The translations under genes and the position numbers were made by a program. DNA of 64,000 nucleotides, from contig CAUJEL010000046.1 of assembly GCA_963169875.1 (NCBI GenBank), positions 25,463 to 89,462 of the forward strand, given 5' to 3'. Positions 9,056 to 59,324 of the stretch are shown here, piece by piece (positions within the stretch are counted from its first letter, which is position 1; each line of letters starts with the position of its first letter). The stretch comes from Candidatus Zhuqueibacterota bacterium (GTDB taxonomy: Bacteria; Zhuqueibacterota; Zhuqueibacteria; Residuimicrobiales; Residuimicrobiaceae). The notes beneath the pieces are model-generated. The model had not been told where the DNA came from. It ran no database searches and saw nothing but the letters and a program-made list of their open reading frames with translations.

Positions 9056-9063
9056 GGGCAACC

Positions 9064-29859: not shown

Positions 29860-30240
29860 ATGAAGGTGATGGTAGTCGACGATGAGCGGGATGTTGAACT
29901 GCTGTTCCGGCAGTATTTCCGCAAAGAGATCCGCCAACAGCAAATCGATTTCACGTTTTCCCTTTCCGGCGAGGAAGCATTACAACAGCTGCACGCCATG
30001 AACCAGCCCCCGGCGATTGTACTCATCCTCTCCGATATCAACATGCCCGGCATGAATGGCCTGCAGTTGCTCAAAGCCGTCAAGCACCATTTCCCCGCCA
30101 TCAAGGTCGCGATGATCACCGCCTACAGCAACCAGTATTATAAGGATGCCATGGAAAATGGAGCGGATAACTATTACACCAAACCCCTCGACTTCACTCA
30201 GCTTAAAAAGGAATTGTTTCGGGAGGTGGTTAATGGATAG
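29860..30240 (+). CDS. Single-domain response regulator (receiver only)
   Basis: The protein has 126 aa, with GAGGAG 5 nt before the ATG. It is a CheY-like receiver: acidic pocket MVVDDE at the start, phospho-acceptor aspartate in LSDINMPGMNG near residue 55, the switch threonine in MITAYS and the lysine in YTKPLDF. No output domain follows. Its stop overlaps the start of the histidine kinase by 8 bp, so the two are made together. It probably receives phosphate from that kinase and passes it on or regulates it allosterically. Confidence 0.93.
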   Translation: MKVMVVDDERDVELLFRQYFRKEIRQQQIDFTFSLSGEEALQQLHAMNQPPAIVLILSDINMPGMNGLQLLKAVKHHFPAIKVAMITAYSNQYYKDAMENGADNYYTKPLDFTQLKKELFREVVNG

Positions 30241-41410: not shown

Positions 41411-41473
41411 AGCATTGACGTTGTAAATTTTAAAAAACCGGATTCTGATTTGCCAACTCTGCATTATCGCTCA

Positions 41474-41836: not shown

Positions 41837-44800
41837 TCACTTCAGCAACAGCATCTTTTTGGTCGTCGTAAAGTCACCGGCAACCATGCGATAGAAATAG
41901 GTGCCGCTGCCCAGCAGACGGCCATCCAGTTGCACGCTGTAGCGGCCGGCGCTTTGCTGCCGGTCCACCAGCGTCATGACCTGGGCGCCAAGGATGTTGT
42001 ACACCGTCATCTTCACCTTGCCAGCCTTGGGCAGTTCATAATTGATGGTAGTGACGGGATTGAACGGATTGGGGTAATTCTGCGACAATGCATATTGCGT
42101 TGGCAGCGCTTGTTTTTCCATTTGTTCATTCAATCCGGTGAAGACCGGTTGTTCGGGCAGCCAGTCCCAGCCGAACTCAGGCCAGCTGGTTTTGGCAAAA
42201 ATATTGGCGATGGTGTACTGAGCCGCCTCGTCATCGGTGAGCTGACGTCCGCCATAGATGCGCTTGGAATAGTCCGAACCTGGACCATAGCACTGGTATT
42301 CAGCAAACAGCTTCGGTTGTGCTGACATCGGCCCCCAGCCATCCGGACTAACCGAGGCGGGTTCTTCGCAGCGGATGAAGACGCACTGCGGTGCACCTTG
42401 CCAGGGTCTGCCGAGGATGAAACTGGTGATCGGGATGCCATTGAATCCAACCGAGTCCGCGGTGATTTTGCAGTCCATAAAGACCAGACCGAATTTCGCG
42501 GCTGCCTCCGTGCTGGACGCAGTCAGAGCACCGCCCTGGCGATTGATATGGATTTCGCACTGATCGAGCAAAACAATATTGCGTCCAAAGATGAAATCGA
42601 CCGAACCTTCGATGTAACAATTCTTCATATAGGTCCGTCCGGTGCCGCGGCCGCCCCAGGCATAGTAGGTATCCTGATAGCCGAGCAAACGGCAGTTATA
42701 ATAGCTCTGGCGGTCGCCATTGACGCGCAGAGCAACACCCTGCTGATCGGCAAAAGTGCCGTCGTTCTTGATCGTGTTCTGGAAGGTGATGTCATGGGCG
42801 CTGAAATCATCGGCATCAATGGCGGTGCTGTAGCAGTTGGACGTGCCGCCCACGCCCGCTTTGCCGGCATAATCGTCATAGGTCAGGATCGTGGTTTCAG
42901 CATTTTCGCCCTTAAGGACAACGTTCGTCTTGTTGCGGTCCAGCAGCAGTTTTTCATAATAGACGCCCGCCCGGACGAAAATATACCAGGTGCCGGTGTA
43001 GAAATCGGGCACGTCATTGAAGGCCGCCTGCACCGTCGTATAGTCGCCGCTGCCATCCTGGGCCACCACCTTGAGCACATCCGGCGCCGGAGTCTGGGTG
43101 GTGAACGTATCCACCTGTCCATAGCCCGTGCCTTTGCCGTTGCTGGCATAGGCGCGCACATAATAGGTGGTGTTCGCCTGCAGCGGAAACATCAGGCTGG
43201 TGAAAGTGAGTTTGTCGATGGTTTGTACGGTTTTGGCATCCGCAGTGGTGGGATCACCCGTGGTATTCCAGCACACGCCATAGACGGTCAGTGTGTCGCC
43301 GCCCCAGGACGTCACCGTGCCACCGGATTTCGCCGATTTGACCAGAATGGTATTGGTCCCGGCGGTGACGACCGTCGGCACGCCCACGGAATCCAGGGTG
43401 GTGAATTCCATTTCTTCGCCGTAAGCGGTCCCGGCATCATTGGTGGCATAAGCGCGTAGATAATACCTGGTGGCCGGTGTTAAACCGGTCAACTGGCTCA
43501 CAAAGGAACCCGCACCCGCGCCATCGCTTGTTTTTTGCTGCTCGACGGTCGGCGCCGGTTCCGTATTCCAGCACACGCCCCTGGCAGTGACCGGCGCACC
43601 GCCATCGGTCGCAATCACGCCGCCGCTGCTGGCAAAGGTGTCGGAGATATGGGTGACCTCATTGGTTACGATAGCGGGCGGGTCCGCGGAGACGCCCATG
43701 GTGGAACCCCAGATGAGCACGCTATCGACTGCCACCAGCTTGGCCCATCCCTGGGTCGCGGTGTTATAGGGATAAACGCGCAAGTAGAAGGTTTCGCCTG
43801 TGTACACCGTATCCTTGAAGGTCGCAGCGAGCGGCATCACCGCGTTGCCGACGATAAAGGTATCGGGCACAATAATGGTTTTGGTCGCAAATGTGGGATC
43901 TTTGGAATAACAGATTTGCGCCTTGAATTTGTCGGTGAACCAGCCGCCGATGTACATGGACATGCCGTCCAGGAACAGGGTGCCGCCGTGTTTGGGCGCC
44001 ACCGCATACTGGAACCACAGGCTGTCGCTGATGGCTTCCTCAGCGACCCAGGTTTTGGAAACCGTCTGGATGGCGCCGCAGGTCTGGTTGATGCCATCCG
44101 GGTTGGGCAGATTGGCGAATTGGTTGTAAAACTTCATCGCCGGACTGTAGGCCTGCTGCTGCGCGTTGATGGCGCCGGAGGTCTCCGGCTGGTCATCGAC
44201 TTCAAAGGGCCACAGGGCATAGGTCGGCATCGGCGCGTCTGCGGTTATGCCCGCAATCACCACATTTTGCACCGTTAGATACTTCCCGGTTGCGGTGGAG
44301 GCGTTGTTATGCACCCAGGGATTGATGCGCAGATAAAAAGTCTCGCCGGCCTCGATGAGCAGGTCGGGCTGCGCGGTCACGGTCTGACAGGTATTGCTGG
44401 TGTTGCGCGGCAGGTAATTATTCACGGTATCGGCGGTCTGATAGACGACCTGGACCGGATTAAGGAAATCGGGATCCTTGGAATACCAGATATTTGCTTT
44501 CAAATTGTTGAGTGAATGGCAGCCGAGATCCATGGAAATCGCTGTCACCGTGAATTTGGCGCCGGGTTTGGGCGAGACGGCAAACTGGACATAGACCGTG
44601 TCGATCTGATCCATCTGTCCGGCCGGCCAGACATACTGGCCCGGACTGGAGACGATGCGCAGACGCTGCGCGCCATTGAATCCCGTGTACTGATTGATGT
44701 TCATGTTATTGAGGTATTCATCGGGCGCGATCAATTTCCCGGTCACCGCGGCGGTCTGACCGGTTCCACCCGCATTGGGATCGGTGCAGGCCCAGGTGAC

Positions 44801-45466
44801 GGAAGCGGGCATGGGTGCGGATTCTACTTTGCCGGAGATGCTCACATTTTGGATGGTGAGATACTTGCCCGAAGTGGCGCTGGTATTATTATGCACCCAG
44901 GGATAAACACGAAGATAAAAAGTTTCGCCATCGTTCACCCACAAATCCGGTTCGCCGGTCACCGTCTGGCAGGTATTGGTGGTATTGCGCGGCAAATAGT
45001 TGTTGGCCGTATCCGCGGTCTGAAAAACAACCTGCACCGGATTGAGAAAATCCGGATCCTTGGAATACCACACATTCGCCTTGAAATTGTTGATGGAATG
45101 ACAGCCGAGATCCATGGTGAAATCGGTCACTTTAAAATTATAACCGGTCTTGGGAGAGACCGCAAACTGGACATAGACCGTGTCGATCTGGTCCATTTGA
45201 CCAGCCGGCCAGTTATATTGGCCCGGCGCGGATATAATGCGCAAACGCTGCGCGCCGTTGAAACCCGTGTACTGATTGATGTTCATGTTGGTCAGTGCTT
45301 CATCCTGGGCTGCAACCTGCCCGGACGTGACCACTGTCTGGCCGCTGCCCCCCGCATTGGGGTCGGTACAGCTCCACGTGGCGGAGGCCGGCGCCTGCGC
45401 CCAAACACCGCCGGCCATGAGCACAACCAGCATCAAGCCGAGAAAAACGGTAATGATTTGTTTCAT
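41837..45466 (-). CDS. Multidomain pectinesterase (CE8) with type IX secretion tail
   Basis: The protein has 1209 aa, with AGGGAGG before the ATG and a signal peptide ending GVWAQ. Three beta-sandwich units of about 190 aa come first; the first two are nearly identical (WPAGQMDQIDTVYVQFAVSPK in both, shown shortened) and the third is divergent. Two fibronectin-III-like units follow (GVCWNTEPAPT, GVCWNTTGDPT; about 600-790). The CE8 beta-helix is at about 796-1095: ADQQGVALR, YQDTYY and GSVDFIFGR contain the catalytic glutamine and aspartates. The end (YALSQNYPNPFNP to KMLLLK) is a type IX sorting domain, so the enzyme is exported to the cell surface. It removes methyl esters from pectin, exposing it to the lyases and GH28 enzymes. 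Confidence 0.93.
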   Translation of the reverse strand: MKQIITVFLGLMLVVLMAGGVWAQAPASATWSCTDPNAGGSGQTVVTSGQVAAQDEALTNMNINQYTGFNGAQRLRIISAPGQYNWPAGQMDQIDTVYVQFAVSPKTGYNFKVTDFTMDLGCHSINNFKANVWYSKDPDFLNPVQVVFQTADTANNYLPRNTTNTCQTVTGEPDLWVNDGETFYLRVYPWVHNNTSATSGKYLTIQNVSISGKVESAPMPASVTWACTDPNAGGTGQTAAVTGKLIAPDEYLNNMNINQYTGFNGAQRLRIVSSPGQYVWPAGQMDQIDTVYVQFAVSPKPGAKFTVTAISMDLGCHSLNNLKANIWYSKDPDFLNPVQVVYQTADTVNNYLPRNTSNTCQTVTAQPDLLIEAGETFYLRINPWVHNNASTATGKYLTVQNVVIAGITADAPMPTYALWPFEVDDQPETSGAINAQQQAYSPAMKFYNQFANLPNPDGINQTCGAIQTVSKTWVAEEAISDSLWFQYAVAPKHGGTLFLDGMSMYIGGWFTDKFKAQICYSKDPTFATKTIIVPDTFIVGNAVMPLAATFKDTVYTGETFYLRVYPYNTATQGWAKLVAVDSVLIWGSTMGVSADPPAIVTNEVTHISDTFASSGGVIATDGGAPVTARGVCWNTEPAPTVEQQKTSDGAGAGSFVSQLTGLTPATRYYLRAYATNDAGTAYGEEMEFTTLDSVGVPTVVTAGTNTILVKSAKSGGTVTSWGGDTLTVYGVCWNTTGDPTTADAKTVQTIDKLTFTSLMFPLQANTTYYVRAYASNGKGTGYGQVDTFTTQTPAPDVLKVVAQDGSGDYTTVQAAFNDVPDFYTGTWYIFVRAGVYYEKLLLDRNKTNVVLKGENAETTILTYDDYAGKAGVGGTSNCYSTAIDADDFSAHDITFQNTIKNDGTFADQQGVALRVNGDRQSYYNCRLLGYQDTYYAWGGRGTGRTYMKNCYIEGSVDFIFGRNIVLLDQCEIHINRQGGALTASSTEAAAKFGLVFMDCKITADSVGFNGIPITSFILGRPWQGAPQCVFIRCEEPASVSPDGWGPMSAQPKLFAEYQCYGPGSDYSKRIYGGRQLTDDEAAQYTIANIFAKTSWPEFGWDWLPEQPVFTGLNEQMEKQALPTQYALSQNYPNPFNPVTTINYELPKAGKVKMTVYNILGAQVMTLVDRQQSAGRYSVQLDGRLLGSGTYFYRMVAGDFTTTKKMLLLK
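44240..45390 (-). repeat. Internal duplication in the CE8 gene
   Basis: Two tandem copies of a ~190-codon beta-sandwich unit, roughly 44820-45390 and 44240-44810. Protein landmarks CTDPNAGG, NMNINQYTGFNGAQRLRI, MDLGCHS and WYSKDPDFLNPVQVV recur in both. High similarity points to recent duplication or gene conversion. Confidence 0.85.
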
Positions 45467-45493: not shown

Positions 45494-46315
45494 TTAAGGA
45501 TTGGGTGCGTCCTGTAATGGAATGGGCCAGGGCGGCAGCGGCGGATCGGGCCACTTTGACTCTGGCAGCAAATACTTGCACAAAGGATGTTTCAGGTCTT
45601 TCAGGCCAGCAGCGACCAAGCCGGCCATCGTCGCCGCGCCCTTTTCCATAAAGTGGGTATTGTCAGATTTGCCATTGGGCAGCGCGTTGAAAAAACCCGG
45701 CGGCACCCGCATAAACAGCGGTTCTGATTTTTCCGCTCCCAACCCGGAAAGCAGCTGCATGCTGCTGGCGTGCATGTCGATGAGCGGCACCTGATAAAGA
45801 TTTGCCACCTCCCGTACGACAGCGGGATAGTCGCCATGACCGTCTTTGAGCACACCGTCCTCGGAAAAGGAACGGCGGGCGACGGGGGTTAGGAGAATGG
45901 GAAAGGCATTTTTCGCCCGCGTTTCCGCAACGAAACGGATCAGATTATCGCGGTATGCGGTGTGCGCCCCGGCGTAACGGGTGGAATCCGATATCTTGGC
46001 ATCGTTATGGCCGAATTGGATGAAGAGATAGTCGCCTGGCTTGAGATCGGTCAAAACGCTGTCCCAGCGGCCCTCCCTGATGAAGCTTTTGCTGCTGCGG
46101 CCGTTTTTGGCATAATTCACGACCTGGATCTCCTGCTTGAAGAACTGGTCAAAGAGCTGACCCCAGCCGCGCTCGGGCGTATCCGCCGCCGGTTTGTTCG
46201 CCATGGTGGAATCGCCGATCAAACGCAGAGCAGGTTTATCCTTTTCAGGACAAAACCGCGGGGAACAGGCTGCCAGGAGAAATAAAAAGATCAGCCATTT
46301 ACCAAATCGCATCAT
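45494..46315 (-). CDS. Rhamnogalacturonan acetylesterase (CE12, SGNH hydrolase) lipoprotein
   Basis: The protein has 273 aa. A lipoprotein signal ends LLAAC, so it should be membrane-anchored. The SGNH blocks are complete: GDSTM with the nucleophile serine, NGRSSKSF with the glycine, QFGHND with the asparagine, and DNTHF with the catalytic aspartate and histidine. These fit carbohydrate esterase family 12, which removes acetyl groups from rhamnogalacturonan I. The start lies 1 bp after the GH43 stop, showing a shared transcript; a tandem ATG leaves the exact start open by one codon. Confidence 0.92.
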   Translation of the reverse strand: MMRFGKWLIFLFLLAACSPRFCPEKDKPALRLIGDSTMANKPAADTPERGWGQLFDQFFKQEIQVVNYAKNGRSSKSFIREGRWDSVLTDLKPGDYLFIQFGHNDAKISDSTRYAGAHTAYRDNLIRFVAETRAKNAFPILLTPVARRSFSEDGVLKDGHGDYPAVVREVANLYQVPLIDMHASSMQLLSGLGAEKSEPLFMRVPPGFFNALPNGKSDNTHFMEKGAATMAGLVAAGLKDLKHPLCKYLLPESKWPDPPLPPWPIPLQDAPNP

Positions 46316-46316
46316 A

Positions 46317-47891
46317 TCACTCGATTATTTTGACGTGAAAAAAATCAAAATCGCTGTAACCGGATGTATTTTCGCCTCTGCTCATGGCGTAAAGTCCTGT
46401 CTTGGCGCCCACCCATTTGCCGGGCAGCGCGGTGAACAGGGGACCCAATGGACAATAGCTGCTGCCATCTCTGCTGTAGCTGAACTGAACCTGCGCGCCT
46501 GTCGCGATATCTACCTTGAAGAAAACCTCAGAGACGGGAATACGCGCAGTCGCAGCGATCACCTCTTCCGCCCCTTTTTCAGCATCCTGGCAAATGATTT
46601 GTTCCAGCACATAGCCCTGGTCGTCGCGGCGAATGGTGATGGCCGCGTAAGCGTTGCCAAACACCACCAATCCGGCGCGCTCCTGCTGCGACTGCGGCTG
46701 AAACAAGAGCCGCGTTTCGACTGCGAATGCATCTGCCGGGAACTTCTGGGCGACAATATTGGGCAGGTTCCACAAATTTTTATAATCACCAGCCATTGGA
46801 CACATCGGCAGACGCAACCAGCCGGCCTTACTTTTTAAATCATACCAATGGGTATCGATGTTCGCCTGCCACTGCCATTGCAGTCCCAGCTCATCCCCCG
46901 AGAAATCATCCCACATGGCGATGGTATCTTTTTCAGCGCCCTGGACAGAAGGCACGGTTCCTGATGGAACCGGCTCGCCGATGCCATCTCCATCCAGATC
47001 GGCCCCCATCACCGGCCAATCCGCACGCCAATCCATCGGCTGCAGGTGAAGAATGCGGCCGCAGGTGCCATGATCCTGGAAATGGATGAATTTGTCGTCG
47101 CCGTTGGCCAGTTCGATCCAGGCGCCCTGGTGCGGACCATTGATGTCTGTCTTGCCCTGTTCCAGGACGGTCCTGTCTTCATAGGGACCAAAGATGGAGC
47201 GGGCGCGCAGCACAGTCTGCCATCCAGATTTTACGCCGCCGGCCGGCGCGAATATATAGTACCAGCCATTGCGCTTGTACATTTTGGGGCCTTCGATGGT
47301 TGGGTGGTGTTCGTGGCCATCGAAAACCGTAACGCCTTCATCGAGGATGCGGGTGCCATCCGCACTCATGCGGTGCAGGGTGAGGATGGAATTGAATCCA
47401 ACGCGGCTCTTGGCCCAGGCGTGGACGAGATAGGCCCGGCCATCCTCATCCCAAAAGGGACAGGGATCGATCCAGCCTTTGGCGCGGTGGACCAGCAGCG
47501 GCGCATCCCAGGGTCCGGCCGGATCGGCGCCTTTCACCAGATAGATGCCGAAATCCGGATCGCCATAATATATCCGGTATTCCCCCTGATGATAGCGAAT
47601 ACTGGGCGCCCAGATGCCTTTGCCATGCTGCGGCTGGTCATAGAGCGAATCGGGGATTCGCGGCACCGCGTGGCAGAGGATTTTCCAGTGCACCAGGTCG
47701 CGGGAGTGCAGCACCGGGAGTCCGGGCGCATGGGCGAAACTGGAGGAGACCAAATAATAGTCTTCGCCGACCCGGATGACATCGGGATCGGAATAATCCG
47801 CGTGCACAATGGGATTGGTGTAGGTGATGTGGCGCGGGGCGCATCGCAAAAAGACCAGCGCCAGCAGTATGGGAATCCAGCTTTTGCGCAT
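46317..47891 (-). CDS. GH43-family hydrolase (arabinofuranosidase/xylosidase/galactanase type)
   Basis: The protein has 524 aa from the ATG at 47891; the track start is a TTG two codons earlier. The N-terminus is lipoprotein-like (LALVFLRC). The five-bladed GH43 propeller covers about 27-310, with the base aspartate in ADYSDPDVI, the modulating aspartate in WIDPCPFWD and the acid glutamate in TIEGPKMY. A C-terminal beta-sandwich (about 330-524) includes WDDFSGDELGLQWQWQAN, as in many GH43 enzymes. It probably trims arabinan or galactan side chains of rhamnogalacturonan; the exact substrate is not readable. It is coupled to the CE12 gene. Confidence 0.9.
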   Translation of the reverse strand: MRKSWIPILLALVFLRCAPRHITYTNPIVHADYSDPDVIRVGEDYYLVSSSFAHAPGLPVLHSRDLVHWKILCHAVPRIPDSLYDQPQHGKGIWAPSIRYHQGEYRIYYGDPDFGIYLVKGADPAGPWDAPLLVHRAKGWIDPCPFWDEDGRAYLVHAWAKSRVGFNSILTLHRMSADGTRILDEGVTVFDGHEHHPTIEGPKMYKRNGWYYIFAPAGGVKSGWQTVLRARSIFGPYEDRTVLEQGKTDINGPHQGAWIELANGDDKFIHFQDHGTCGRILHLQPMDWRADWPVMGADLDGDGIGEPVPSGTVPSVQGAEKDTIAMWDDFSGDELGLQWQWQANIDTHWYDLKSKAGWLRLPMCPMAGDYKNLWNLPNIVAQKFPADAFAVETRLLFQPQSQQERAGLVVFGNAYAAITIRRDDQGYVLEQIICQDAEKGAEEVIAATARIPVSEVFFKVDIATGAQVQFSYSRDGSSYCPLGPLFTALPGKWVGAKTGLYAMSRGENTSGYSDFDFFHVKIIE

Positions 47892-47948
47892 GTTCAAACT
47901 ACTCTTGTAATTTGGTATTTCTCATCTCCACGGAACCTGAACAGCACA

Positions 47949-48028: not shown

Positions 48029-49048
48029 CTAAAATCCAATACCCAATGAAAACCGGTTGACGCCATCGAACACGTCAAAACTCGAATAAGAATAGTCGAA
48101 TGCGATGGCGCTGCCCCCCATCATGGTATGCAGGCCAACCCCGGCCGACCACGATGCGATGTCCTGATTGGATTGATATCCCCCGCGCAGGGCGAATTTC
48201 TGCAGGAAGAGATATTCCAGTCCCACATTGACCCGCTCCGAATAGTTATTGGGATGGAGAAAATCGACGGCGAGGGTCATCTGATAATCATCGTTACCGG
48301 TCGGGGAGATAAAGTCGTAGAGATCGACTGCAGCGCCCATCACAAAAGTCAGCGGCAGCTGCTCGTTGATCTCCTCGCGTTTGATATTGGACGAAAAATT
48401 ACGGATCGCCATGCCGAAGCGAAAGCTCTTCAATCCGGTGTAATATTTGACGCCGGCATCAAAAACCAGTTTGCTGGCGTTGTTGTCTTTGACGTTGCCG
48501 CCCGCCATGGCGGTCGATCCGAGATTCTGTCCCGCGATGCGCGCATTGCCGGCGATCAAAAACTGCGTGCTGATGGCGCGACCGTAGCTGATGCCGAACG
48601 CATAAGCGCCCACATTGCTGGCCAGTCCGGTATCCTTGTACCCGCCCGGATAGAGTGCCTTCTCGGCGTCATCCAGCAGCGACGTGGTGTAGATGTCGCC
48701 ATAATCGACGCTGAGAAAACTCAAACCGATTGTGCCGTAGCGTCCCAGGTCATACGAGAAAGCGCCGGCCATGTAATTGATATCCGCAATCCATTGCACC
48801 GCATAGAGCCGGACGTCAAATTTAGTGCCCGCCTCAGCCAGTCCGGCCGGATTGTAGAAAATACTCTCCGCGCCGCGGCCGATGCCGCAAAGGGTCTCCC
48901 CCATGCCGCTCGCCTTGGCCGACACGCCCACCTGGAGAAAATTCATCGTGCTCTGGGCGATCTTGTTCAAGCCCACCTGAGCCTGTACCATGGAAACAGT
49001 TAACAGCAGGGCGATCAGGATGAGCCGTATTGATTTCAAATTAGTCAT
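48029..49048 (-). CDS. PorV/PorQ-like (UPF0164) outer-membrane barrel protein
   Basis: The protein has 339 aa, with AAGGAG before the ATG and a signal peptide ending VQAQ. The opening QVGVSAKASGMGETLCG...ESIFYNPAGLAE is the hallmark of the PorV/UPF0164 family, FadL-like barrels; the C-terminus alternates in barrel fashion and ends SLGIGF. In type IX secretion PorV shuttles cargo proteins from the translocon to the attachment complex. This copy is encoded with a TonB receptor and a tailed surface protein, so it may be a locus-specific partner and not the general PorV. Confidence 0.87.
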   Translation of the reverse strand: MTNLKSIRLILIALLLTVSMVQAQVGLNKIAQSTMNFLQVGVSAKASGMGETLCGIGRGAESIFYNPAGLAEAGTKFDVRLYAVQWIADINYMAGAFSYDLGRYGTIGLSFLSVDYGDIYTTSLLDDAEKALYPGGYKDTGLASNVGAYAFGISYGRAISTQFLIAGNARIAGQNLGSTAMAGGNVKDNNASKLVFDAGVKYYTGLKSFRFGMAIRNFSSNIKREEINEQLPLTFVMGAAVDLYDFISPTGNDDYQMTLAVDFLHPNNYSERVNVGLEYLFLQKFALRGGYQSNQDIASWSAGVGLHTMMGGSAIAFDYSYSSFDVFDGVNRFSLGIGF

Positions 49049-49072
49049 GGACTCTCTCTCCTTCTATCCGGA

Positions 49073-51211
49073 TCACCGGACCACCATTAATTTTTGATAA
49101 GTCATTTCGCCATTGGGTTTCTGGAAAACCACGATATAGACGCCGCTGCTGATCACCTGCTGATTGCGGGTGACCATGTCCCAGAAATCATTGCCCGCTT
49201 CCACCGGACTATCATGATCGATGGTTTGAACCAGATCGCCGTTTTCAGTATATATTTTAATCTGCACCTGCCCCGGCAGATTGTAGAACATGATGCCGCG
49301 CTGATCCGCCCACCCGGTTTTGGCCAGCAGCGGGTCATTGATGTTGTAGGGATTGGGCACCATGCGAATTTTGGTCAAATCATTCTGGGAAAAATAGGGC
49401 GGTTTGATGCCGAATCGCGTCAATTGCAGGGCGCGGTTGCTGTAGATGATTTTGCCGCGACTCAGGGGATCCGCCAACGGATCATTGACGTCGATCTGCG
49501 CCTTGGCCTGCACATAATAATAATACTGCGCGCCGATCATGACGTTCTTGTCGCTGTAGACATGCTCGCCGGCTTTATCTTCCGGCCCGGACGAATATAT
49601 TTCCTCATAAAAGAGAGTATCCAGGGCCGAGAGGCGGCGCATGATGCGATAGCCGGCAAAATCGGGACGGACCTCCGCATCCGGGTCGCTCCATCTGATT
49701 TCAACGCCGGTGCCCAGTCCGGTGATGGAGACCGAAGATGGTGGCGGCGGCGCCTGGGGAATACGATAACCCTGTTCAAAATTCCATTGGGCGCGCCAGG
49801 CGCTCTTCATCAGGGAATCGATGCCGGTGCTGAGCCAGCGGTCCTTGCGCATATCCACTTCAGAGGCCCCCAGCGGAAAGGCAAAATTATCCGGCAAAAA
49901 TCCCGTGCGGCTGTTGGGCAGTCCCGGTGGATCTTCAAGGGTACCGTTGAGCCATTTCTTGCCGACTTGTTGTGCCGTCTGAATATCGATCCCGGAATAC
50001 CCACTGGCGAACACCAGGTGCAGCTTTTGTCCGGGCGCAAAGGTATAGGGCCCGAACGTGGAAAACATCTTGGAGTTATTGGCCTGGGTGGTGCCCGCCG
50101 GATGGTTGGAATAGTCCGGTTTGCCCTGTTCATCGATGTTGCCGGCGTGGTGGGTGCCGGGCCAGGTGGCGCCGCTCATGGGGAAGAAATCGGAGTAAGC
50201 GCCGCGCAATGCCCAGAAATTCTTGTCGCCGTACTCATCGCCCTCGACGTTGTAGGGGAATTTGGTTGCCGTGCCCATGTAGGTGACTTTGGGCTGGAGA
50301 AAATCATCGCGATCATCGGCCGCATCCACATAGGGTTTTTCCGAGGCGTGCAGGATGGCATACCAGACAAATTTGTGATTGGTCAGGCGCCCGCCCTGCG
50401 ACGGCACGGGGCCGCCCATGTTGTCCCCGGGCGTGGCCGGATCGTCGGCGCTGTATTCGTAAAAGACGCGCAGGCTGTCGCCGGCGCGGCCGCCGTAATA
50501 GTGCTGCCACGTGGTGGCCGGATTGTAACGCTCGCTGCTGCCGGGCTGGGGATTGAGCGCATTGGAGCGATAACTGTTATAGCCATTGGATTCCACATTG
50601 ATGTGGAACTCTTTCAGCGTGTCGTCGCTGCTATTGGTCAATTCGACATCGAGGATCAGATAATCGTCATTGAGCGTCTGGCCCCAGGCCATGATCTGCC
50701 GCTTCACCTGGACGCCGTAGACATTCTGCGTTGTCACCCGCACGATCTGGTCGCAGGTCAGATCGCCGAATTGCGAGGGATCGACCACGCCAAAAACATC
50801 CAGGGTGTCCTTTCTGAAATCGATGGTCGGTTCGGTATATTCATTGCGGACGTAATTGGTCATGCGCTCGACCACCTTGCCGAACTTCATGAACTCATTG
50901 ACAGGTCCATAGATGGCCACGGTGTGCAGGGTATCGATGGGATCGCGCCAATTGGTGGTCGCCATTTTAAATCCGGCGCCGACCCAGAGATCCTGCTCCT
51001 GGCCTCTGATGCCGATGATATCATGATCATTGGGAAAAAATACCGCGCGATAGTCAAAATTGCCCTTGTCGCCGTTGGCGGTCACGCCCGCCCAGATGCG
51101 GCCTGTTTTGATCAGCGCGGTCTCCAGTTCCGGTTGCTTCTGCGCCCACAACGGCTGCATCAACAGCAACAGCAACCCGGCGGCGTATAACGTATGATTC
51201 AGGCTCTTCAT
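49073..51211 (-). CDS. Secreted surface protein with FN3-like domain and type IX-like tail
   Basis: The protein has 712 aa, with GGAG before the ATG and a signal peptide ending PLWAQ. No enzyme family is recognised in residues 25-480, which contain many Trp, Tyr and Asp residues and motifs such as DLWVGAGF and WYAILHASE. An FN3-like unit occurs at about 485-590 (ADFAGYRI-type strand). The C-terminal ~90 residues (MVPNPYNIND, FYNLPGQVQIKIYTENGD, SSGVYIVVFQ) are a variant sorting domain. It lies directly between the SusC-like receptor and the PorV-like gene with gaps of 24-36 bp. I infer a surface glycan-handling partner of the receptor, in the position SusD holds in Bacteroides; it has no visible SusD helices. 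Confidence 0.72.
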   Translation of the reverse strand: MKSLNHTLYAAGLLLLLMQPLWAQKQPELETALIKTGRIWAGVTANGDKGNFDYRAVFFPNDHDIIGIRGQEQDLWVGAGFKMATTNWRDPIDTLHTVAIYGPVNEFMKFGKVVERMTNYVRNEYTEPTIDFRKDTLDVFGVVDPSQFGDLTCDQIVRVTTQNVYGVQVKRQIMAWGQTLNDDYLILDVELTNSSDDTLKEFHINVESNGYNSYRSNALNPQPGSSERYNPATTWQHYYGGRAGDSLRVFYEYSADDPATPGDNMGGPVPSQGGRLTNHKFVWYAILHASEKPYVDAADDRDDFLQPKVTYMGTATKFPYNVEGDEYGDKNFWALRGAYSDFFPMSGATWPGTHHAGNIDEQGKPDYSNHPAGTTQANNSKMFSTFGPYTFAPGQKLHLVFASGYSGIDIQTAQQVGKKWLNGTLEDPPGLPNSRTGFLPDNFAFPLGASEVDMRKDRWLSTGIDSLMKSAWRAQWNFEQGYRIPQAPPPPSSVSITGLGTGVEIRWSDPDAEVRPDFAGYRIMRRLSALDTLFYEEIYSSGPEDKAGEHVYSDKNVMIGAQYYYYVQAKAQIDVNDPLADPLSRGKIIYSNRALQLTRFGIKPPYFSQNDLTKIRMVPNPYNINDPLLAKTGWADQRGIMFYNLPGQVQIKIYTENGDLVQTIDHDSPVEAGNDFWDMVTRNQQVISSGVYIVVFQKPNGEMTYQKLMVVR

Positions 51212-51247
51212 TCAAGACTCCGTTCTGCATATACTCGTTCAAGCGCC

Positions 51248-54200
51248 CTAGAAAGCGAAGCGCAGTCCAAACCAGATATCCCGCGGCTGGCCATAGAGCC
51301 AGAAAGCAAAGTTGGGATCGTTGACATAAGGTTTATCACTGGAGCGCAGATCGCCCACCTTGTCGTCCCCCGGGATGAAAAAACCGGGATTCTTGGCGCG
51401 GAGATCATCATATTCCGGCCCGTCGTACATGGGCAGATGCAAGGAAGCGAGATATTTGTACTCATCATTGGTGGCGCCATCAAAGGCATAGCCCCGGTGC
51501 ATGAGATTCACTTCGAAATTGAATAGATTACTGATGTCCACATACGCCGTGGTCTCGATGCCCGCCAGTTTCACGGTCTTGGTGACTTTCAGATCCACCA
51601 TGTAGTAATCGGGCCAGCGCAGATTGTCGTTGACGTGCAACTGACTGAGGGGATTGAAGGTGAAATAGTCGCCCGCCTCCCATTCGCCAAAGAACGTGAT
51701 ATTCCAGCCGCTGAGGGGATGGGTTCCCAAAACACGCGGCCCCCATTTTTCCGGCGCGCGCAAGGTGAGATTGGCATTGACGCGGGGGATGGGCAGCGAA
51801 CTGGATTCCTGGCCGGCGTATAATCCCTCTTTGTCGTCGCCGATGGTGACATCGGTGACGATCTCGCGACCGGTCAGTCCGGATTTTTTCAGCATATAAT
51901 TCAGGTTGACCCAGCCGTTGATCCAGCCGCCATCGTTCTTGCTCAGATTGAATTCAAATCCCTGGATGTCTTCATATTCATTATTGGCCCAGGCATCATA
52001 ATTGACATTGCCGGCGGCGTTGGTGTAGGTCAACTCCCCATGCTGGCCGCTGACGTCCTTTGAATAACTCGATATTTTCGCCACATAACTTTCCCGGAAA
52101 TTGTAGGCCACGCCCAGTTCATACGAGATCGTGCGCGGCGGCTCGAGATTGGGATTGGACATGTCGTAGAGGCCGTTCTTGGTGTAGCGGTAACGGTACA
52201 AATACATGGTATAATAGGGTGGATTGGAACGGAAATGACCATAGTTGAAATAAAACTTGGAGCGATCCGACACCGGGAATGAAACCCCGACGCGCGGACT
52301 GAGGGTGAAATGGTTCTTGATGGGCTGGAGAAAACCGGGATGGGTCTTGTCGTATTCCACCCAGGTGTCCCAGATGTAGGAGCGGCCGGACTTGAGATAC
52401 TCGAAGAGAATGGAATCTTCGGCCACGCTCTGCGGCGTGAAGGCATCCACCGCAAAAGCGTCGCCCGTGGGCCACTCGCCGCCGCCACCGTAATAATAGT
52501 CAAGCCGCAGGCCGATGTTGGCGATCAGGGATTCGAGGCTGATTTGATCCTGGACATAAACGCCGGTCTGACTCGGTTTGCGGTGATAGTTGAATTCGTA
52601 GGCATTATAATAATTCTCATTCCATTTTTGCCACAGGTTGTGGTTGAGATCGATATAATTATACTCCAGTCCGGCCTTGAGATAATGGCTGGTATTCAAC
52701 TGCGCCGCCATATCGAACTTGGCGCGGTACTGGCCGACGCGCACATTGGTATAGAGGTCGCCCTCCTTGCGGCGGAAGCGGTACGGCACGCCGGGGATGC
52801 CGTCGTAACTGGGGTAGGTATAGGTGTAGCTGGTATCGACGACCAGCTTGTTGGTGCCATACATGAATTTGCCATAGGGCATCTCGGTGACCGGAAAGGG
52901 ACCGAACATGGTGAGAATGGTCTGGTCGCGATTGTCGCCCACCGGCGCATGATCCTTGATGCCCAGGGCGCTGAGGGAGAGTTCCCAATAGGCGGTCTTG
53001 CTCAAGACGTGGTTGATGGTCACACCGCCCATGAGGGTGGTCTGGTCGAGCAGGGGGAAAAAGGGCGGATCGAACCAGTAGGCGTAACTGTCGCCGGAAT
53101 TCTTGACATTTTTGATGTTATCCACCGGCATGAAGCCGCCGGAACGACTGGCATCGGGAAAATCGCCAAAGGCCGGGCGGATCGGACTGACGCCCATCTG
53201 GCGCTTGTGCAGTCCGTTGAAGGTAATGGTCAGGTTATTCATCGGCTGGCTGCGTATGGTGGCAAAAGTTGTATAGAGCTCTTCGCTGGAACGCGACACC
53301 GGCATGATGTAATGCCGTTCACGGGCATTGTGCGACAGATAAAAAGTGGCATTGCCCAGTTTTTTGCCGATCAGAGGCACCGGGCCGCCAAATCCGCCGT
53401 CGATATTCCAGTCCGAGCCCTCTTCCTCCATGTGGTGTTCCGCAAAGAGTTTTTTGTGTTCATCGCTGACCGTGTAGCCCAGTTTGGCAAGGCCGTCGTA
53501 ATCGGGCACGGTCATGAACATCCAGCATCCGAGGAGATAATAATCCAACGGCGTGGCCGGAATTTTGGGATTGGACCGGTTGAAATTGGCCGCCGCCGCA
53601 TTCCAGCCGGTGAAACGGGGATACTGTTCCCGCAGATACGCATCATCTTTCCAGGCTTCATCGGTGCCAACGAAAGAGACCGCCGGATCGAGGTATGAGC
53701 GCAGAATCGGCCCCCTGGTGTCATAAAAAGAATCGCCGAAACGGCGCATGTGCGACTGATCCATGGAAAGACTCAGGGTACCGTGGTAGGCGGTTTTGGA
53801 ACCGCTCTTGGTGCTGACATTGATGAGGCCGGAGCGGAAATTGCCATATTCGGCATTGTAGCCGCCGGACATGAGCGATACCTGTTCGATGGCGCTGAGG
53901 GGGATGGAGGTTTCGGCATTGCCCGCCGCGGCATTGACATAAGAGAGTCCGTTGACCATCATGCCGGTCTGATCCGCGGAGCCGCCGCGAATGGTCAGAT
54001 AGCCGTTGTCGGTGGAGACACCGGGCAGCTTGGCGAGAAAAGCGTTGATCTCGCGGATGCCCGTGGCGTCCTGCAGCTGCACATCGTTGACCACCATCTG
54101 GGTGTTGGAGACCTCGAGATGCAGTTCGTCGCGCTTCGCCTGGACCACCACTTCACTGCCCTGGAGCACGGTTTCCCTGAGCGCAAAATCTGCCTTGGCG

Positions 54201-54499
54201 ACGCGGTCCGCCGAAACCATCACGTTGGTGACTTTCTGCGCGGTATAACCCACCAGAGAGGCGCGCACAGCAACGGTTCCCACCGGCACATTGATGATGA
54301 CGTACTCGCCCTTGATATTGGTGACAGCCCCCAGGCTGGTGCCCTCGATCATCACATTGACGCCGGGCAGGGGCGCTTTGCTGGCGGCATCCTTGACCAC
54401 GCCGCTGATGCGACTGCGGGTCTGCGCCTGCACTCCCACAGAACCGATCAACAGAAACAGGGCCACAAAGCCAATGCCCCACGTTCTTTTACATCGCAT
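51248..54499 (-). CDS. SusC-like TonB-dependent receptor of the pectin locus
   Basis: The protein has 1083 aa from the ATG at 54499, 5 nt after AAGGAG; the track uses a GTG two codons earlier. A signal peptide is followed by a carboxypeptidase-regulatory-like domain (about 30-110; GVVKDAASKAPLPGVNV). The plug comes next (FLAKLPGVSTDNGYLTIRGG, GYNAEYGNFRSGLINVSTKSG), then a ~850-residue barrel that ends IWFGLRFAF. No STN domain is present, so it does not signal through FecR. It likely imports oligogalacturonides or rhamnogalacturonan fragments. It lies 14 bp after the PL1 gene and 36 bp before the 712-aa protein gene. Confidence 0.93.
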   Translation of the reverse strand: MRCKRTWGIGFVALFLLIGSVGVQAQTRSRISGVVKDAASKAPLPGVNVMIEGTSLGAVTNIKGEYVIINVPVGTVAVRASLVGYTAQKVTNVMVSADRVAKADFALRETVLQGSEVVVQAKRDELHLEVSNTQMVVNDVQLQDATGIREINAFLAKLPGVSTDNGYLTIRGGSADQTGMMVNGLSYVNAAAGNAETSIPLSAIEQVSLMSGGYNAEYGNFRSGLINVSTKSGSKTAYHGTLSLSMDQSHMRRFGDSFYDTRGPILRSYLDPAVSFVGTDEAWKDDAYLREQYPRFTGWNAAAANFNRSNPKIPATPLDYYLLGCWMFMTVPDYDGLAKLGYTVSDEHKKLFAEHHMEEEGSDWNIDGGFGGPVPLIGKKLGNATFYLSHNARERHYIMPVSRSSEELYTTFATIRSQPMNNLTITFNGLHKRQMGVSPIRPAFGDFPDASRSGGFMPVDNIKNVKNSGDSYAYWFDPPFFPLLDQTTLMGGVTINHVLSKTAYWELSLSALGIKDHAPVGDNRDQTILTMFGPFPVTEMPYGKFMYGTNKLVVDTSYTYTYPSYDGIPGVPYRFRRKEGDLYTNVRVGQYRAKFDMAAQLNTSHYLKAGLEYNYIDLNHNLWQKWNENYYNAYEFNYHRKPSQTGVYVQDQISLESLIANIGLRLDYYYGGGGEWPTGDAFAVDAFTPQSVAEDSILFEYLKSGRSYIWDTWVEYDKTHPGFLQPIKNHFTLSPRVGVSFPVSDRSKFYFNYGHFRSNPPYYTMYLYRYRYTKNGLYDMSNPNLEPPRTISYELGVAYNFRESYVAKISSYSKDVSGQHGELTYTNAAGNVNYDAWANNEYEDIQGFEFNLSKNDGGWINGWVNLNYMLKKSGLTGREIVTDVTIGDDKEGLYAGQESSSLPIPRVNANLTLRAPEKWGPRVLGTHPLSGWNITFFGEWEAGDYFTFNPLSQLHVNDNLRWPDYYMVDLKVTKTVKLAGIETTAYVDISNLFNFEVNLMHRGYAFDGATNDEYKYLASLHLPMYDGPEYDDLRAKNPGFFIPGDDKVGDLRSSDKPYVNDPNFAFWLYGQPRDIWFGLRFAF

Positions 54500-54513: not shown

Positions 54514-56187
54514 TTAGCGAATGAGCTGCAGCTTGATGACTCTGCTCTCTTGTCGATGGCGGACCACGAAAAAGTAAACACCCGAAGCGACCGGTTTACG
54601 CTGCGCATCCAAGCCATCCCAGCGGATGGTATGGGTTCCCGGGCGCAAGACGCCGCTGAGCGTGCGAACCACCCGGCGGCCCGAGATATCATAGATGCAA
54701 CCTTCCACCTCACCCGGAGACGGAAGTGATATGAGCCACGCCGTGCTGTGGTTGAAAGGATTCGGATAATTCTGCGTCAGGGTGAAATTGGCCGGAAGGG
54801 CAGTCGCAGGACTCGTCACACTGGAAACAGCTCCCGTCAGACTGTTCAAATAGAGTTCCAGTTGGGTATAGCCCTCCGCGTTCAGCAGATTGCGATCCGA
54901 TGCATCCGCCGGATCGAGTCCGTTGGCGCGCTCCCAGGCATCGGCCATGCCATCGTGGTCATTGTCTTCGGGCGCCGGCAGACTGAATAGTTCGGGCCAG
55001 CCGCCTACCTGCGTCTGCGAATCGATGATGCCGCGGACAACTGCAGTATCGGACATGCCCTGGTTTTTCTCATACCCCTTGCCGTCAAAGGTGGCCGTGC
55101 CGCTGAACACATCGGCAACGATGCGGGCATCGACGATGTCGCGTTTGGGCAGGGTAGCGCCCGCTCCGGCCAGAACCAGGGTGTACGCCTCCTCGGCGCT
55201 TTGCTGGGTGATCGGGATATAGGGATGCGGCGTATAAGCCCGGGAGATCGTCTCGCTGCGATAGGTACCCTGGACGCCGCCGGCCCAGTTGTTGGCGGTG
55301 ATCGCCGGGGATCCGGCGACATAATTTTCCTCGACATACCACTTGCCCTTGCCGTCGGAGGGCTCGACGATGCGGTAGCGTACACCGCTCTTGGTGGCGG
55401 GCCCGGCTTTGTAATAGTTGGCCACGATGTTGATGGTGCCGCCTTCGCCGCCATAGCCGCTGTTAAAGCCCCAGTTGTAGATCACATTGTTGCGGAAATC
55501 CATATTGATGCAGAGGGCGTTGGAACCATCGAAGCGGGGATTGCGGCTGGAATGATGGGCGAGGAGGTTGTGATGAAAACTGACATTTTCACCGCCCCAG
55601 ATGCCGCCGTAACCATGGGCGCCTTTTGAGTGCGTAGAGAGATAGAGACTTTCGGAGATGAGGCACCATTGAATGGTGGTGCTGTCGTTGCCATAAAAGG
55701 ACATACACTCATCCACGCTCCAGCTGGCGGAGCAGTGGTCGATGAGGATGTGTTTGCGATAGCGGCCCCAGATGGCGTCATCCTCGGTGGCCAGGACGTC
55801 GCCAAGGCGAAAACGCAGATGCCGCAGGATGACATTGCTGGCGTTGATCACCACGGTCTGATCGCGCAGGCAGATGCCGTCGCCGGGCGCGGTCTGGCCG
55901 GCGATGGTGATATCGCCCGAATTGATTTTAAGATCGCTTTTGAGTTGGATAGTTCCTGAAACACGGAATACAATGGTGCGTTTGCCGGATTTGTTCACGG
56001 CTTCGCGCAGACTGCCGGCGCCGCTGTCGTTGAGGTTGGTCACTTCATAGACCGCGCCGCCGCGGCCGCCTGTGGTGTATTTCCCGGCGCCTTCTGCGCC
56101 CGGAAACGCCACAATCTGGGCTGACGCAACGGCCGCCAATAAAAAACAGATGACGATACCCGACATGAATATTTTGTTGAACTGCAT
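54514..56187 (-). CDS. Pectate lyase (PL1 family) with type IX secretion tail
   Basis: The protein has 557 aa, with AAGGAG 4 nt before the ATG and a signal peptide ending VASAQ. The PL1 beta-helix covers about 25-400: FPGAEGAGKYTTGGRGG, LRHLRFRLGD, DHCSASWSVDE and HHNLLAHHSSRNPRFDG include the calcium site and catalytic arginine region of pectate lyases. A calcium-loop-like segment DNDHDGMADAWE follows at about 420. The C-terminus (QNYPNPFNH to IKLQLIR) is a type IX sorting domain. It cleaves de-esterified homogalacturonan outside the cell and is co-transcribed with the TonB receptor. Confidence 0.93.
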   Translation of the reverse strand: MQFNKIFMSGIVICFLLAAVASAQIVAFPGAEGAGKYTTGGRGGAVYEVTNLNDSGAGSLREAVNKSGKRTIVFRVSGTIQLKSDLKINSGDITIAGQTAPGDGICLRDQTVVINASNVILRHLRFRLGDVLATEDDAIWGRYRKHILIDHCSASWSVDECMSFYGNDSTTIQWCLISESLYLSTHSKGAHGYGGIWGGENVSFHHNLLAHHSSRNPRFDGSNALCINMDFRNNVIYNWGFNSGYGGEGGTINIVANYYKAGPATKSGVRYRIVEPSDGKGKWYVEENYVAGSPAITANNWAGGVQGTYRSETISRAYTPHPYIPITQQSAEEAYTLVLAGAGATLPKRDIVDARIVADVFSGTATFDGKGYEKNQGMSDTAVVRGIIDSQTQVGGWPELFSLPAPEDNDHDGMADAWERANGLDPADASDRNLLNAEGYTQLELYLNSLTGAVSSVTSPATALPANFTLTQNYPNPFNHSTAWLISLPSPGEVEGCIYDISGRRVVRTLSGVLRPGTHTIRWDGLDAQRKPVASGVYFFVVRHRQESRVIKLQLIR

Positions 56188-56486: not shown

Positions 56487-57860
56487 TTACTTGACCAGCA
56501 GCATCTTTTTGGTGCGGCTGAAATTTTCCCCGGTCAATTCGTAAAAATAGACACCGGATGGTAAATCAGCGCCTGAAAAGTCGACCTGATGATCGCCGGC
56601 GCCATACCGTCCCTGCGCCAGAACCTTCATCCGGCGGCCGCGCGTATCATAAACCGTCAACGTAATGGTTTGCGCTTTGGAAAGTGAAAAGGCGATGGTC
56701 GTGGCCGGATTGAAGGGATTGGGATAATTCTGTGCCAGCACAAAAGCTTCGGGCAATGCAGCCCCGTTTTGTGCCACCGCCGAAGCATTCGCAGCCCAAC
56801 GGCGGTCGCCAATGGGACCTTTATTGTCGGCATAGGTGAGCAGGGGCGAACCAGCCGGCAGCGTAAAATCGCCGTTGGCGGGATCGGCAAAGCCGGGATC
56901 CATGCGGATCGTGTCCCGAACCGTATGCTTCAGCCAGTTCTTCTTGGCGCTGAGCTGCCACATGCAGATGTTGGTGATGACAGCCATATTGTCATTGAGG
57001 GTTGTTTTGATATTGAGAGCCGTCTTGGTGCTGGTCTCCCAGTTCGTCTGCGTGGAAAAGATAGAGTTGGTGATATAAATCGGTTTATCAAACAATGCCG
57101 TGGCTTTTTCAGTCAAAATGATCTCGCGCGGATCGCCCAAGCCCATGTTGTACCAGGTGGTGTGATCCACCGTGACCTCTGGATATTCAAATCGCTGCGT
57201 GTCGCTGTTGCCGTTGATGCGAATACCATAACTGGTGATGTTGTACAGGGTGGAATTGTTCACCAGGATATAGTTGCAGCCGACATATTTGTAATGGACG
57301 ACGGTGCCGGTATTATGAATGATGCACTGGTTTATGATCGTTGTGTCCACCACCACATTGCCGGCCAGGCTGGTGCCTGCGCCGTCAAGGACATTGCCCT
57401 TGAGGTTCATGACATTACAGTTGTGTACAAAGATCTTTTTAATAAACGTCGGCGCCGGGGTTTCGCCCATATAGCAGCGCGCCAGATAAGAGACTTTGGT
57501 GACACCCTCCACGGCGCCGTCGAACTCCAGGCCGTAAAGGATCAGCTTGCCATTATTGCCGACATTGAAGAATTGACAGGTACCTTCTCCGGGATCGGTC
57601 AGGATCTTGACTCTGGCTTTCACCGAACCGTCCCCCTCCACATAAATGCCGAGGGTCTTTTCGGCGATGGTGCCGATGGTCTTGTTGACCGATTCGGTGT
57701 ATTCGGCCTCGGGCAGGAGGCGCAGGATGTCGCCGTCGTTGGCCGCGGCAATGGCGGCGGAGAGGGTGCCGTCACCCGGGGCGACATCGACATAATTTTG
57801 CGCCGCGGCATAACCCGCCAGGCCGAGCGCAGCCATCACAAACAGTAGCATTCTTTTCAT
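56487..57860 (-). CDS. DUF4957/DUF5123-like beta-helix protein with type IX tail
   Basis: The protein has 457 aa from MKRMLLFV, 7 nt after AAGGAG; the track start lies 15 codons upstream next to a repeat. A signal peptide ends GYAAAQ. Residues about 25-360 look like a parallel beta-helix (AAIAAANDGDILRLLPEAEYTESV, NNSTLYNITSYGIRINGNSD) similar to the DUF4957-DUF5123 pair found in pectin and other polysaccharide loci. The final part (AFVLAQNYPNPFNP to KKMLLVK) is a type IX sorting domain. No lyase residues are evident, so binding or an uncharacterised polyuronide activity at the cell surface is possible. Confidence 0.8.
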   Translation of the reverse strand: MKRMLLFVMAALGLAGYAAAQNYVDVAPGDGTLSAAIAAANDGDILRLLPEAEYTESVNKTIGTIAEKTLGIYVEGDGSVKARVKILTDPGEGTCQFFNVGNNGKLILYGLEFDGAVEGVTKVSYLARCYMGETPAPTFIKKIFVHNCNVMNLKGNVLDGAGTSLAGNVVVDTTIINQCIIHNTGTVVHYKYVGCNYILVNNSTLYNITSYGIRINGNSDTQRFEYPEVTVDHTTWYNMGLGDPREIILTEKATALFDKPIYITNSIFSTQTNWETSTKTALNIKTTLNDNMAVITNICMWQLSAKKNWLKHTVRDTIRMDPGFADPANGDFTLPAGSPLLTYADNKGPIGDRRWAANASAVAQNGAALPEAFVLAQNYPNPFNPATTIAFSLSKAQTITLTVYDTRGRRMKVLAQGRYGAGDHQVDFSGADLPSGVYFYELTGENFSRTKKMLLVK

Positions 57861-57894
57861 GATCGTTCTCCTTTTTTTGCCATAACGATTAACC

Positions 57895-58048
57895 AGTTCT
57901 TTCATAAACCGCCGAGCAATTTTTATTGGAATTATCGAACAAATTTTGCTTTGAATTTCGTCTTTGTCATAAAAGTTGCTAACGATGTTATTTTTATGTT
58001 TTTCTTTTCCTTGCGCGTCTCTGCTTTCTCGGCGGTGAATAGTTCAGG
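57895..58048 (+). repeat. MITE-like intergenic repeat, copy B
   Basis: About 154 bp in plus orientation, with terminal inverted repeats containing perfect ACCGCCGAG / CTCGGCGGT. It lies between the DUF4861 stop and the DUF4957-like start, inside the minus-strand locus, and interrupts an otherwise short intergenic distance. Confidence 0.75.
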
Positions 58049-58053
58049 CTAAA

Positions 58054-59307
58054 TTATAAGATGATTTTTACCGGATCATTCAACCGCTGCACACTCTCGT
58101 GCAAATAGGTCACAAAACCCTGCTTGTTGGCGATGCCGCCGGGCTCCTTTTCCCAGGCCGCGAGAAAATAATAGTCGAGGCCGCGATTTTCCGGCTGCAG
58201 CACCACCACATGGCTATTGGCGTCTTCCGTCAACTGCATCTCGTCCGCGCGGCGGTACAAGATGGCGATGCCAAGGCTGTCGTTATTCAAGCTCTGCAAT
58301 CCCCAGGTGGCCAGCCAGGTCCATTCACCCTCCATGGGGCCCGGGATCATTTCCGTGCCCGGCATTTTAACCAGGCCGGTGCACAGATTCGGCAGGTCCG
58401 CATCCATGGCCAGCCGCTGGCGGGTCATGCGGCTTCCCGCTGTGATGGAGAGTTGACTGGTCAGCCGTGTCGACATAGCGCCCAAATTCCAGCCATAATA
58501 GGTGGTCGTGATGCCCGAGTAGATCGGTCCCGATACGGTGACCGCGCTGAAAATACTGTCGGTTACCGCCACCCGCTCCGCCTTCTGGCCGTCCCAGAAC
58601 GCAATCGAGCCAATGCCCAGCGACTCACCCACTTTGAGGATATCCATGCCCCAGGGGCCGGGATTGTGGTAGGAATCGAAGCCATCCTGTCCGACATTTT
58701 GCAGCACCATCTCCGGCGTCAATTTGCCAAAGATGTCCGTGGCGTTGCGCCAGTCGAGATAGAAGCGGTAACCCACCTTATCCGATTCCCAGCCCGGTCC
58801 TTCATAGCGAATATACCATGAGTGATCCGTGTGTTCGGGAGGCACGCGCAGGGAGGTGACATTGGTGAACGTCCCGCCTTCATATTTCCGGCCCTGCCAT
58901 TTTCCACCCGTGCGGATGGAAAGTTCCGCCTGGGTGCGGCGTTTGTATTCGCGCACATTGTAGCCCGTTTGGGCGTAGCGAAGTTTCAGACTGACCGTCT
59001 CCTGTGGTTTAAAATTCAAACAGGCGAGGATAACATCCGCCTGGCCATCCCCGTCTTCGTCCAGCAACTGCACCGGGACTTCCTGGTCGCCCTGCAGTAG
59101 AACCATCGCCAGGGGATTGAAAGCGGGGGCCTTGGCTTTCACTTCCGTCAACGATAATGCCACCATCGCATCAGGCCGCGCGGCAGCGGTTGGATTCTGC
59201 AGTTGCAGAGCCAGAAAAGCAGGGTACTCTTTTTCCATTTTCTGCTGAAACGCTGAAGTGCAGCTTAAGACGGCCACAGCGGCAGCCAATAAAAAGCTCA
59301 TTCGCAT
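58054..59307 (-). CDS. DUF4861-family lipoprotein
   Basis: The protein has 417 aa from MRMSFLLAAA, 7 nt after AAGGAG. A lipoprotein signal ends AVLSC. The body matches DUF4861 by its PVQLLDEDGDGQADVILA segment, WYIRYEGPGWESDKVGYRFYLDWRNA and HNPGPWGMDILKVGESLG. DUF4861 proteins are recurrent in pectin and rhamnogalacturonan loci; the fold is beta-rich and no reaction is established. It starts 17 bp after the GH28-GH105 stop. A role in rhamnogalacturonan processing is inferred from context. Confidence 0.83.
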   Translation of the reverse strand: MRMSFLLAAAVAVLSCTSAFQQKMEKEYPAFLALQLQNPTAAARPDAMVALSLTEVKAKAPAFNPLAMVLLQGDQEVPVQLLDEDGDGQADVILACLNFKPQETVSLKLRYAQTGYNVREYKRRTQAELSIRTGGKWQGRKYEGGTFTNVTSLRVPPEHTDHSWYIRYEGPGWESDKVGYRFYLDWRNATDIFGKLTPEMVLQNVGQDGFDSYHNPGPWGMDILKVGESLGIGSIAFWDGQKAERVAVTDSIFSAVTVSGPIYSGITTTYYGWNLGAMSTRLTSQLSITAGSRMTRQRLAMDADLPNLCTGLVKMPGTEMIPGPMEGEWTWLATWGLQSLNNDSLGIAILYRRADEMQLTEDANSHVVVLQPENRGLDYYFLAAWEKEPGGIANKQGFVTYLHESVQRLNDPVKIIL

Positions 59308-59324
59308 ACGATATCTCCTTGTTT

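Follow-up and report, generated by a model that had tools for sequence, protein, structure and literature searches.

A receptor, tailed surface protein and PorV-family barrel as a candidate glycan importer in a bacterial pectin locus

We analysed a 64,000-nucleotide stretch (the window) of contig CAUJEL010000046.1 from a Candidatus Zhuqueibacterota bacterium, one of the relatives of Bacteroidota in which SusCD is the textbook route of complex-sugar uptake. Within a pectin locus on its minus strand, a TonB-dependent receptor, a tailed surface protein of 712 residues and a PorV/PorQ-family outer membrane barrel are encoded in succession. We consider it probable that this trio forms one outer-membrane glycan-uptake complex that does the job of SusCD with a different partner, in which the surface protein would be retained on the cell, contact the receptor and bind glycan for import. 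Whether the trio also represents an importer class new to science appears evenly balanced. In such a class, the place of SusD would be taken by a surface protein not homologous to it, brought out by the type IX secretion system (T9SS) and kept permanently next to the receptor by its own PorV-family barrel. The class would occur throughout KSB1, Calditrichota, Neomarinimicrobiota, Ignavibacteria and relatives, and its PorV paralogues would form a set of matched anchors, directing each surface protein to a particular receptor.

The initial annotation had described the three genes in this order, 36 bp (receptor to 712-residue protein) and 24 bp (712-residue protein to barrel) apart, and we confirmed this arrangement on the minus strand (Table 1). 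The receptor begins at an ATG at position 54499, preceded by an AAGGAG ribosome site, and its CarboxypepD_reg_2, plug and TonB barrel domains each score above the Pfam cut-off. It is thus a TonB-dependent receptor, but the earlier label ‘SusC-like' is loose, as the match to the SusC/RagA model TIGR04056 is only partial and scores 41.6 bits against a cut-off of 368. The 339-residue barrel, previously called PorV-like, passes the cut-off of the NCBIfam PorV/PorQ family NF033709 (169 bits, cut-off 90) and falls below the equivalog cut-offs of PorV, PorQ and PorV2 alike. A Pfam search with the 712-residue protein returned zero matches, and sequence searches of the PDB with each of the three proteins found no direct match.

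A scan of 84,980 species genomes identified 78 related loci, assigned by their record titles to KSB1, Calditrichota, Neomarinimicrobiota, Ignavibacteria/Melioribacter, Kryptoniota and unnamed relatives. Among loci with a long enough flank, 63 of 64 have a receptor immediately upstream of the 712-residue relative and 62 of 76 have a PorV-family gene immediately downstream of it; in several of the remainder, one lipoprotein-like gene intervenes before the PorV-family gene. The conserved triplets that the initial annotation had proposed to look for therefore exist in several phyla and, as described below, are duplicated many times as a unit in one genome. Of 59 sampled genomes of the phylum, 57 encode members of the 712-residue family, with copy numbers reaching at least 19 per genome; the closest relative (89% identical) belongs to a metagenome-assembled genome titled ‘bacterium UBA2214', which we take to be of the KSB1 lineage. 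At four loci from Neomarinimicrobiota and related bacteria (L106, L107, L114 and L128) a lipoprotein-like gene lies between or after the trio genes, and some of these genes have an IPT-like start and propeller-like repeats. Elsewhere a PorV-family gene is split into three reading frames (L089:9023-10016) and a receptor into two (L062:3628-6924), through decay or assembly error.

The genome that holds the window (5.0 Mb, 95.6% complete) contains 33 profile matches to the PorV/PorQ family, 29 of which were used for a linkage count, and 40 to the receptor plug. Of the 29 PorV-family genes, 16 have a receptor on the same strand no more than 9 kb upstream, compared with ~1.0 expected (binomial p 3e-16), which rules out chance neighbourhood. 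A tailed protein adjoins most of these 16 genes, as well as some without a plug match, and in two loci the barrel gene precedes that of the tailed protein. Across 15 paralogous trios, pairwise distances correlate between receptor and tailed protein (r 0.78), receptor and barrel (r 0.77), and barrel and tailed protein (r 0.58), each with a Mantel p of 2e-4, the lowest value reachable at 5000 permutations. Because paralogue distances correlate, the three components diversify together, and because all 15 trios reside in one genome, shared species history alone cannot explain the correlation. This pattern is consistent with each trio duplicating and diverging as one block; it is not proof of contact. 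On contig C115 (L134, L135), one PorV-family gene and one IPT/TIG-domain lipoprotein are shared by three consecutive receptor/tailed pairs, which suggests that a barrel can act for more than one tailed protein. Other trios in the genome have different neighbours, among them IPT/TIG-domain lipoproteins similar to surface glycan-binding proteins.

The 712-residue protein had been described as carrying ‘FN3 and sorting tail'. The FN3 domain was found by profile and is compatible with our structural model, but the tail appears PorZ-like and is not a canonical sorting tail. It failed the type A model TIGR04183 (18.7 bits, cut-off 23), and its best NCBIfam tail match, weak and under the equivalog cut-off (E 1.5e-5), is PorZ, covering the tail alone and neither the full length nor the beta-propellers. 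Within the family, 46 of the 69 tails have a PorZ match and 23 a type A match. The strongest of the latter (E 2.3e-4, ~21 bits as converted from the E-value) is below the 23-bit cut-off, by which the protein and its relatives were rejected as canonical type A cargo. Pairing of a type B tail with PorP was rejected as well, given that TIGR04131 (type B tail) had no match in any of the 69 relatives at E 0.01 and the PorP/SprF model TIGR03519 had nothing over its cut-off in the window's genome. In sequence, tails of the genome's enzymes read QNYPNPFNP, as is usual, and those of receptor-linked proteins VVPNPY ... GKFAIIK or similar. We compared ten other receptor/PorV-linked tails, chosen by position only, with ten enzyme tails, chosen by motif. 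PorZ was the best NCBIfam match for eight of the ten linked tails and never for an enzyme tail, where type A or PorU was best (Fisher p 7e-4). The type A cut-off was passed by one linked tail in ten and by all ten enzyme tails (p 1e-4), a comparison that is partly circular because the enzyme tails were picked by their motif. The genome encodes a T9SS translocon and sortase (SprA, 863 bits in all; PorU, 887 bits), and its PorZ sits elsewhere (contig C182, 306 bits).

In Porphyromonas, PorU is held on the cell by PorV, and PorZ by PorQ (PMC5562754). The C-terminal domain (CTD) of PorZ stays uncleaved (PMC8545088), and PorU and PorZ both belong to the non-cleaved CTD class (PMC11285876). The earlier suggestion of an anchoring or delivery role of the PorV-like protein towards the 712-residue protein gains support, by analogy, because the tail appears to be PorZ-type and PorZ is held by PorQ. 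Capture of a tail by a barrel is also reasonable, because PorV loops hold the substrate tail in solved translocon structures (PMC10994853). We envisage that the 712-residue protein would be exported by Sec into the periplasm and would pass through the type IX translocon with its PorZ-like CTD leading. The adjacent PorV-family barrel would then grip the CTD and leave it uncut, unlike that of ordinary cargo, and the protein would stay on the surface as PorZ does on PorQ and PorU on PorV. Its front domain, extended by FN3, would be displayed beside the receptor, where it could bind pectin fragments released by the surface enzymes of the locus and hand them over for TonB-driven import through the neighbouring receptor.

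The barrel could instead be a cargo-specific shuttle only, carrying the protein from SprA to a tail-cutting sortase, after which the 712-residue protein would be released or fixed to lipopolysaccharide and the barrel would lie outside any uptake complex. PorV itself works as a shuttle (PMC5562754), type B tails are served by cognate shuttles whose genes lie immediately downstream (PMC12618676), and the genome contains both the PorU sortase and PorU-like proteins. We nevertheless regard this account as rather improbable: the tail is closer to the uncut PorZ and PorU tails than to cut type A tails, type B shuttles appear to remain on their cargo as anchors (PMC9143113, PMC12618676), and the co-diversification of barrel and receptor is not needed of a mere shuttle.

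AlphaFold modelling from a 69-sequence alignment gave a confident full-length model with a predicted local distance difference test score (pLDDT) of 90.3 and a predicted template modelling score (pTM) of 0.87; the N-domain modelled alone reached a pLDDT of 92.2 and a pTM of 0.93. The best Foldseek match of the full-length model is PorZ. The N-domain gave weak but consistent matches to the beta-supersandwich domains of GH94, GH65, GH116 and aldose epimerases, which have this fold in common, and is thus modelled as a beta-supersandwich, a fold type found in sugar enzymes. Among orthologues, many polar positions of the N-domain do not vary, nor do several Asp, His, Arg, Trp and Tyr residues, and some of the polar positions are invariant throughout the family. 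We therefore entertained the possibility that the protein is a surface enzyme of lyase, epimerase or esterase type which sits near the receptor in a real complex and cuts glycans instead of binding them. The nearest folds and the invariant residues both speak for an enzyme. In the matched glycoside phosphorylases and hydrolases, however, most of the active site is provided by a helical-barrel domain that the 712-residue protein lacks. Moreover, the family accompanies receptors also in loci that lack these pectin enzymes, and the enzymes around the trio have type A tails where the 712-residue protein does not. On balance, catalysis seems unlikely to us, if deserving of some weight, and a binding protein is preferred.

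The trio is distinct from SusCD, from type A cargo, from the type B/PorP pair and from PorZ itself; it probably works like SusCD and is anchored like PorZ–PorQ. As in the SusCD systems of Bacteroidota, a TonB receptor with a CarboxypepD_reg extension is combined with a surface protein in a polysaccharide locus, and many copies occur per genome. The partner in the trio, however, is a T9SS-type tailed beta-protein, whereas that in SusCD is a helical lipoprotein; the trio adds the PorV-family barrel as a third part, and its receptor is far under the SusC/RagA cut-off. Neither of the two SusD models PF14322 and PF07980 has a match in the window's genome, and the absence of SusD makes replacement of SusCD, as first suggested in the initial annotation, plausible. 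The 712-residue protein is not a disguised SusD homologue, as it shows no likeness to SusD by family profile or by Foldseek. With PorZ–PorQ and PorU–PorV the trio shares a barrel of the PorV/PorQ family and probably a CTD resembling their uncut domains. A similar arrangement is seen for the genome's own PorU-like proteins (~1630–1645 residues, below the PorU cut-off), which have a PorV-family gene directly downstream on contigs C10 and C178, the latter also carrying SprA. Unlike these pairs, the trio is multiplied and tied to nutrient receptors, and its front domain is a supersandwich instead of the propellers of PorZ or the protease of PorU. Type B CTDs with a PorP/SprF-like shuttle likewise place a cognate barrel, thought to anchor the substrate, directly downstream of a T9SS substrate; in the trio, however, the barrel is of the PorV family and the tail is not type B. 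In the open literature, of which our search coverage was incomplete, we found no account of a receptor/tailed protein/PorV trio, and novelty is unproven. The genome paper of Melioribacter roseus reports pectinases and a SusCDE locus for starch, and text searches of that paper revealed no such trio (PMC3534657).

Several observations weigh against the proposed importer. Of 59 genomes of the phylum, 14 have a SusD-like_3 match above the cut-off of that model, which means that the trio and SusD systems do not exclude each other. The supersandwich assignment comes with a best Foldseek E-value of 1.7e-5 and low template modelling scores (0.2–0.35), and the invariant polar residues of the N-domain would be compatible with an enzyme too. 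To the weakness of the PorZ match must be added that PorZ-type matches occur on some type A tails too. Finally, two of the receptor/tailed pairs on contig C115 have no PorV-family gene of their own.

The genomic context points to pectin as the substrate. Relatives of the window's pectin-locus enzymes accompany 34 of the 37 closest loci (41–89% identity to the 712-residue protein) and none of the 41 more distant ones (contrast p 5e-19). This supports, for the orthologue group as against paralogues, the earlier idea that different triplets neighbour different enzyme sets. The trio might alternatively import a non-pectin substrate such as a vitamin, metal or peptide and lie in the pectin locus by chance, given that the receptor families are broad in scope and that the genome has numerous paralogous trios outside pectin loci; retention of pectin-locus neighbours by orthologues from several phyla makes this very improbable.

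Several phyla are rich in glycan enzymes and have few or no SusD genes, such that uptake must be explained in some other way; the trio, being conserved and duplicated many times, offers a testable explanation. It would also account for the expansion of PorV-family barrels, which is otherwise hard to understand, and suggests that the anchoring principle of PorZ–PorQ and PorU–PorV has been reused for nutrition. If the importer is confirmed, the substrate preferences of uncultured bacteria could be read from their trio families in the way that SusCD loci are already used.

Table 1 Features of the trio and the surrounding pectin locus (positions in the window)
Feature	Coordinates	Strand	Remarks
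Sensor kinase	30146..33973	+	Reg_prop, Y_Y_Y, GAF, HisKA and HATPase domains
Pectic acid lyase (Pec_lyase, PL10) fused to GH28	35908..38496	-	
GH28 polygalacturonase family	38640..40226	-	
Alpha/beta hydrolase	40229..41464	-	acetyl-esterase-like
Pectinesterase	41837..45466	-	type A tail
GDSL esterase	45494..46315	-	rhamnogalacturonan/pectin acetylesterase-like
GH43	46317..47897	-	with GH43_C2 domain
PorV/PorQ-family outer membrane barrel	48029..49048	-	339 aa; NF033709; proposed dedicated tail holder
712-aa surface protein	49073..51211	-	open reading frame; signal peptide ~1-23, N-domain (beta-supersandwich) ~24-484, FN3 ~493-583, PorZ-like C-terminal domain ~612-712
TonB-dependent receptor	51248..54499	-	1083 aa; signal peptide, CarboxypepD_reg_2 extension, plug, barrel
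PL1-like pectate lyase	54514..56187	-	canonical type A tail; Pfam and NCBIfam PelZ similarity
DUF5123/DUF4957 protein	56487..57905	-	type A tail; probably beta-helix of the pectin set
DUF4861 protein	58054..59328	-	pectin set
GH28 fused to GH88	59325..61808	-	GH88: unsaturated uronyl hydrolase family

Read along the minus strand, the trio is preceded by the GH28–GH88 fusion, the DUF4861 protein, the DUF5123/DUF4957 protein and the tailed PL1-like lyase, whose stop lies 14 bp from the receptor start. It is followed by GH43, the GDSL esterase, the tailed pectinesterase, the alpha/beta hydrolase, GH28 and the PL10–GH28 fusion.

Beyond the 712-residue family, receptor/PorV-linked tailed proteins of 1080–1220 residues form a second class (L131, L132, L133, L138–L141 and L145). 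This class appears to have only the tail in common with the 712-residue family, and the two members scanned against Pfam gave essentially no match. Another receptor/partner pairing is present in the window at 6404-9855 (+), where a second, short TonB-dependent receptor (883 residues) is followed by a DUF4249 protein, a pairing that has neither a SusD nor a PorV-family match in the window. The sensor kinase is a possible regulator of the pectin locus, and its sensor half resembles the hybrid two-component regulators of polysaccharide loci. The PL10–GH28 and GH28–GH88 fusions each place successive steps of pectin breakdown in one polypeptide.

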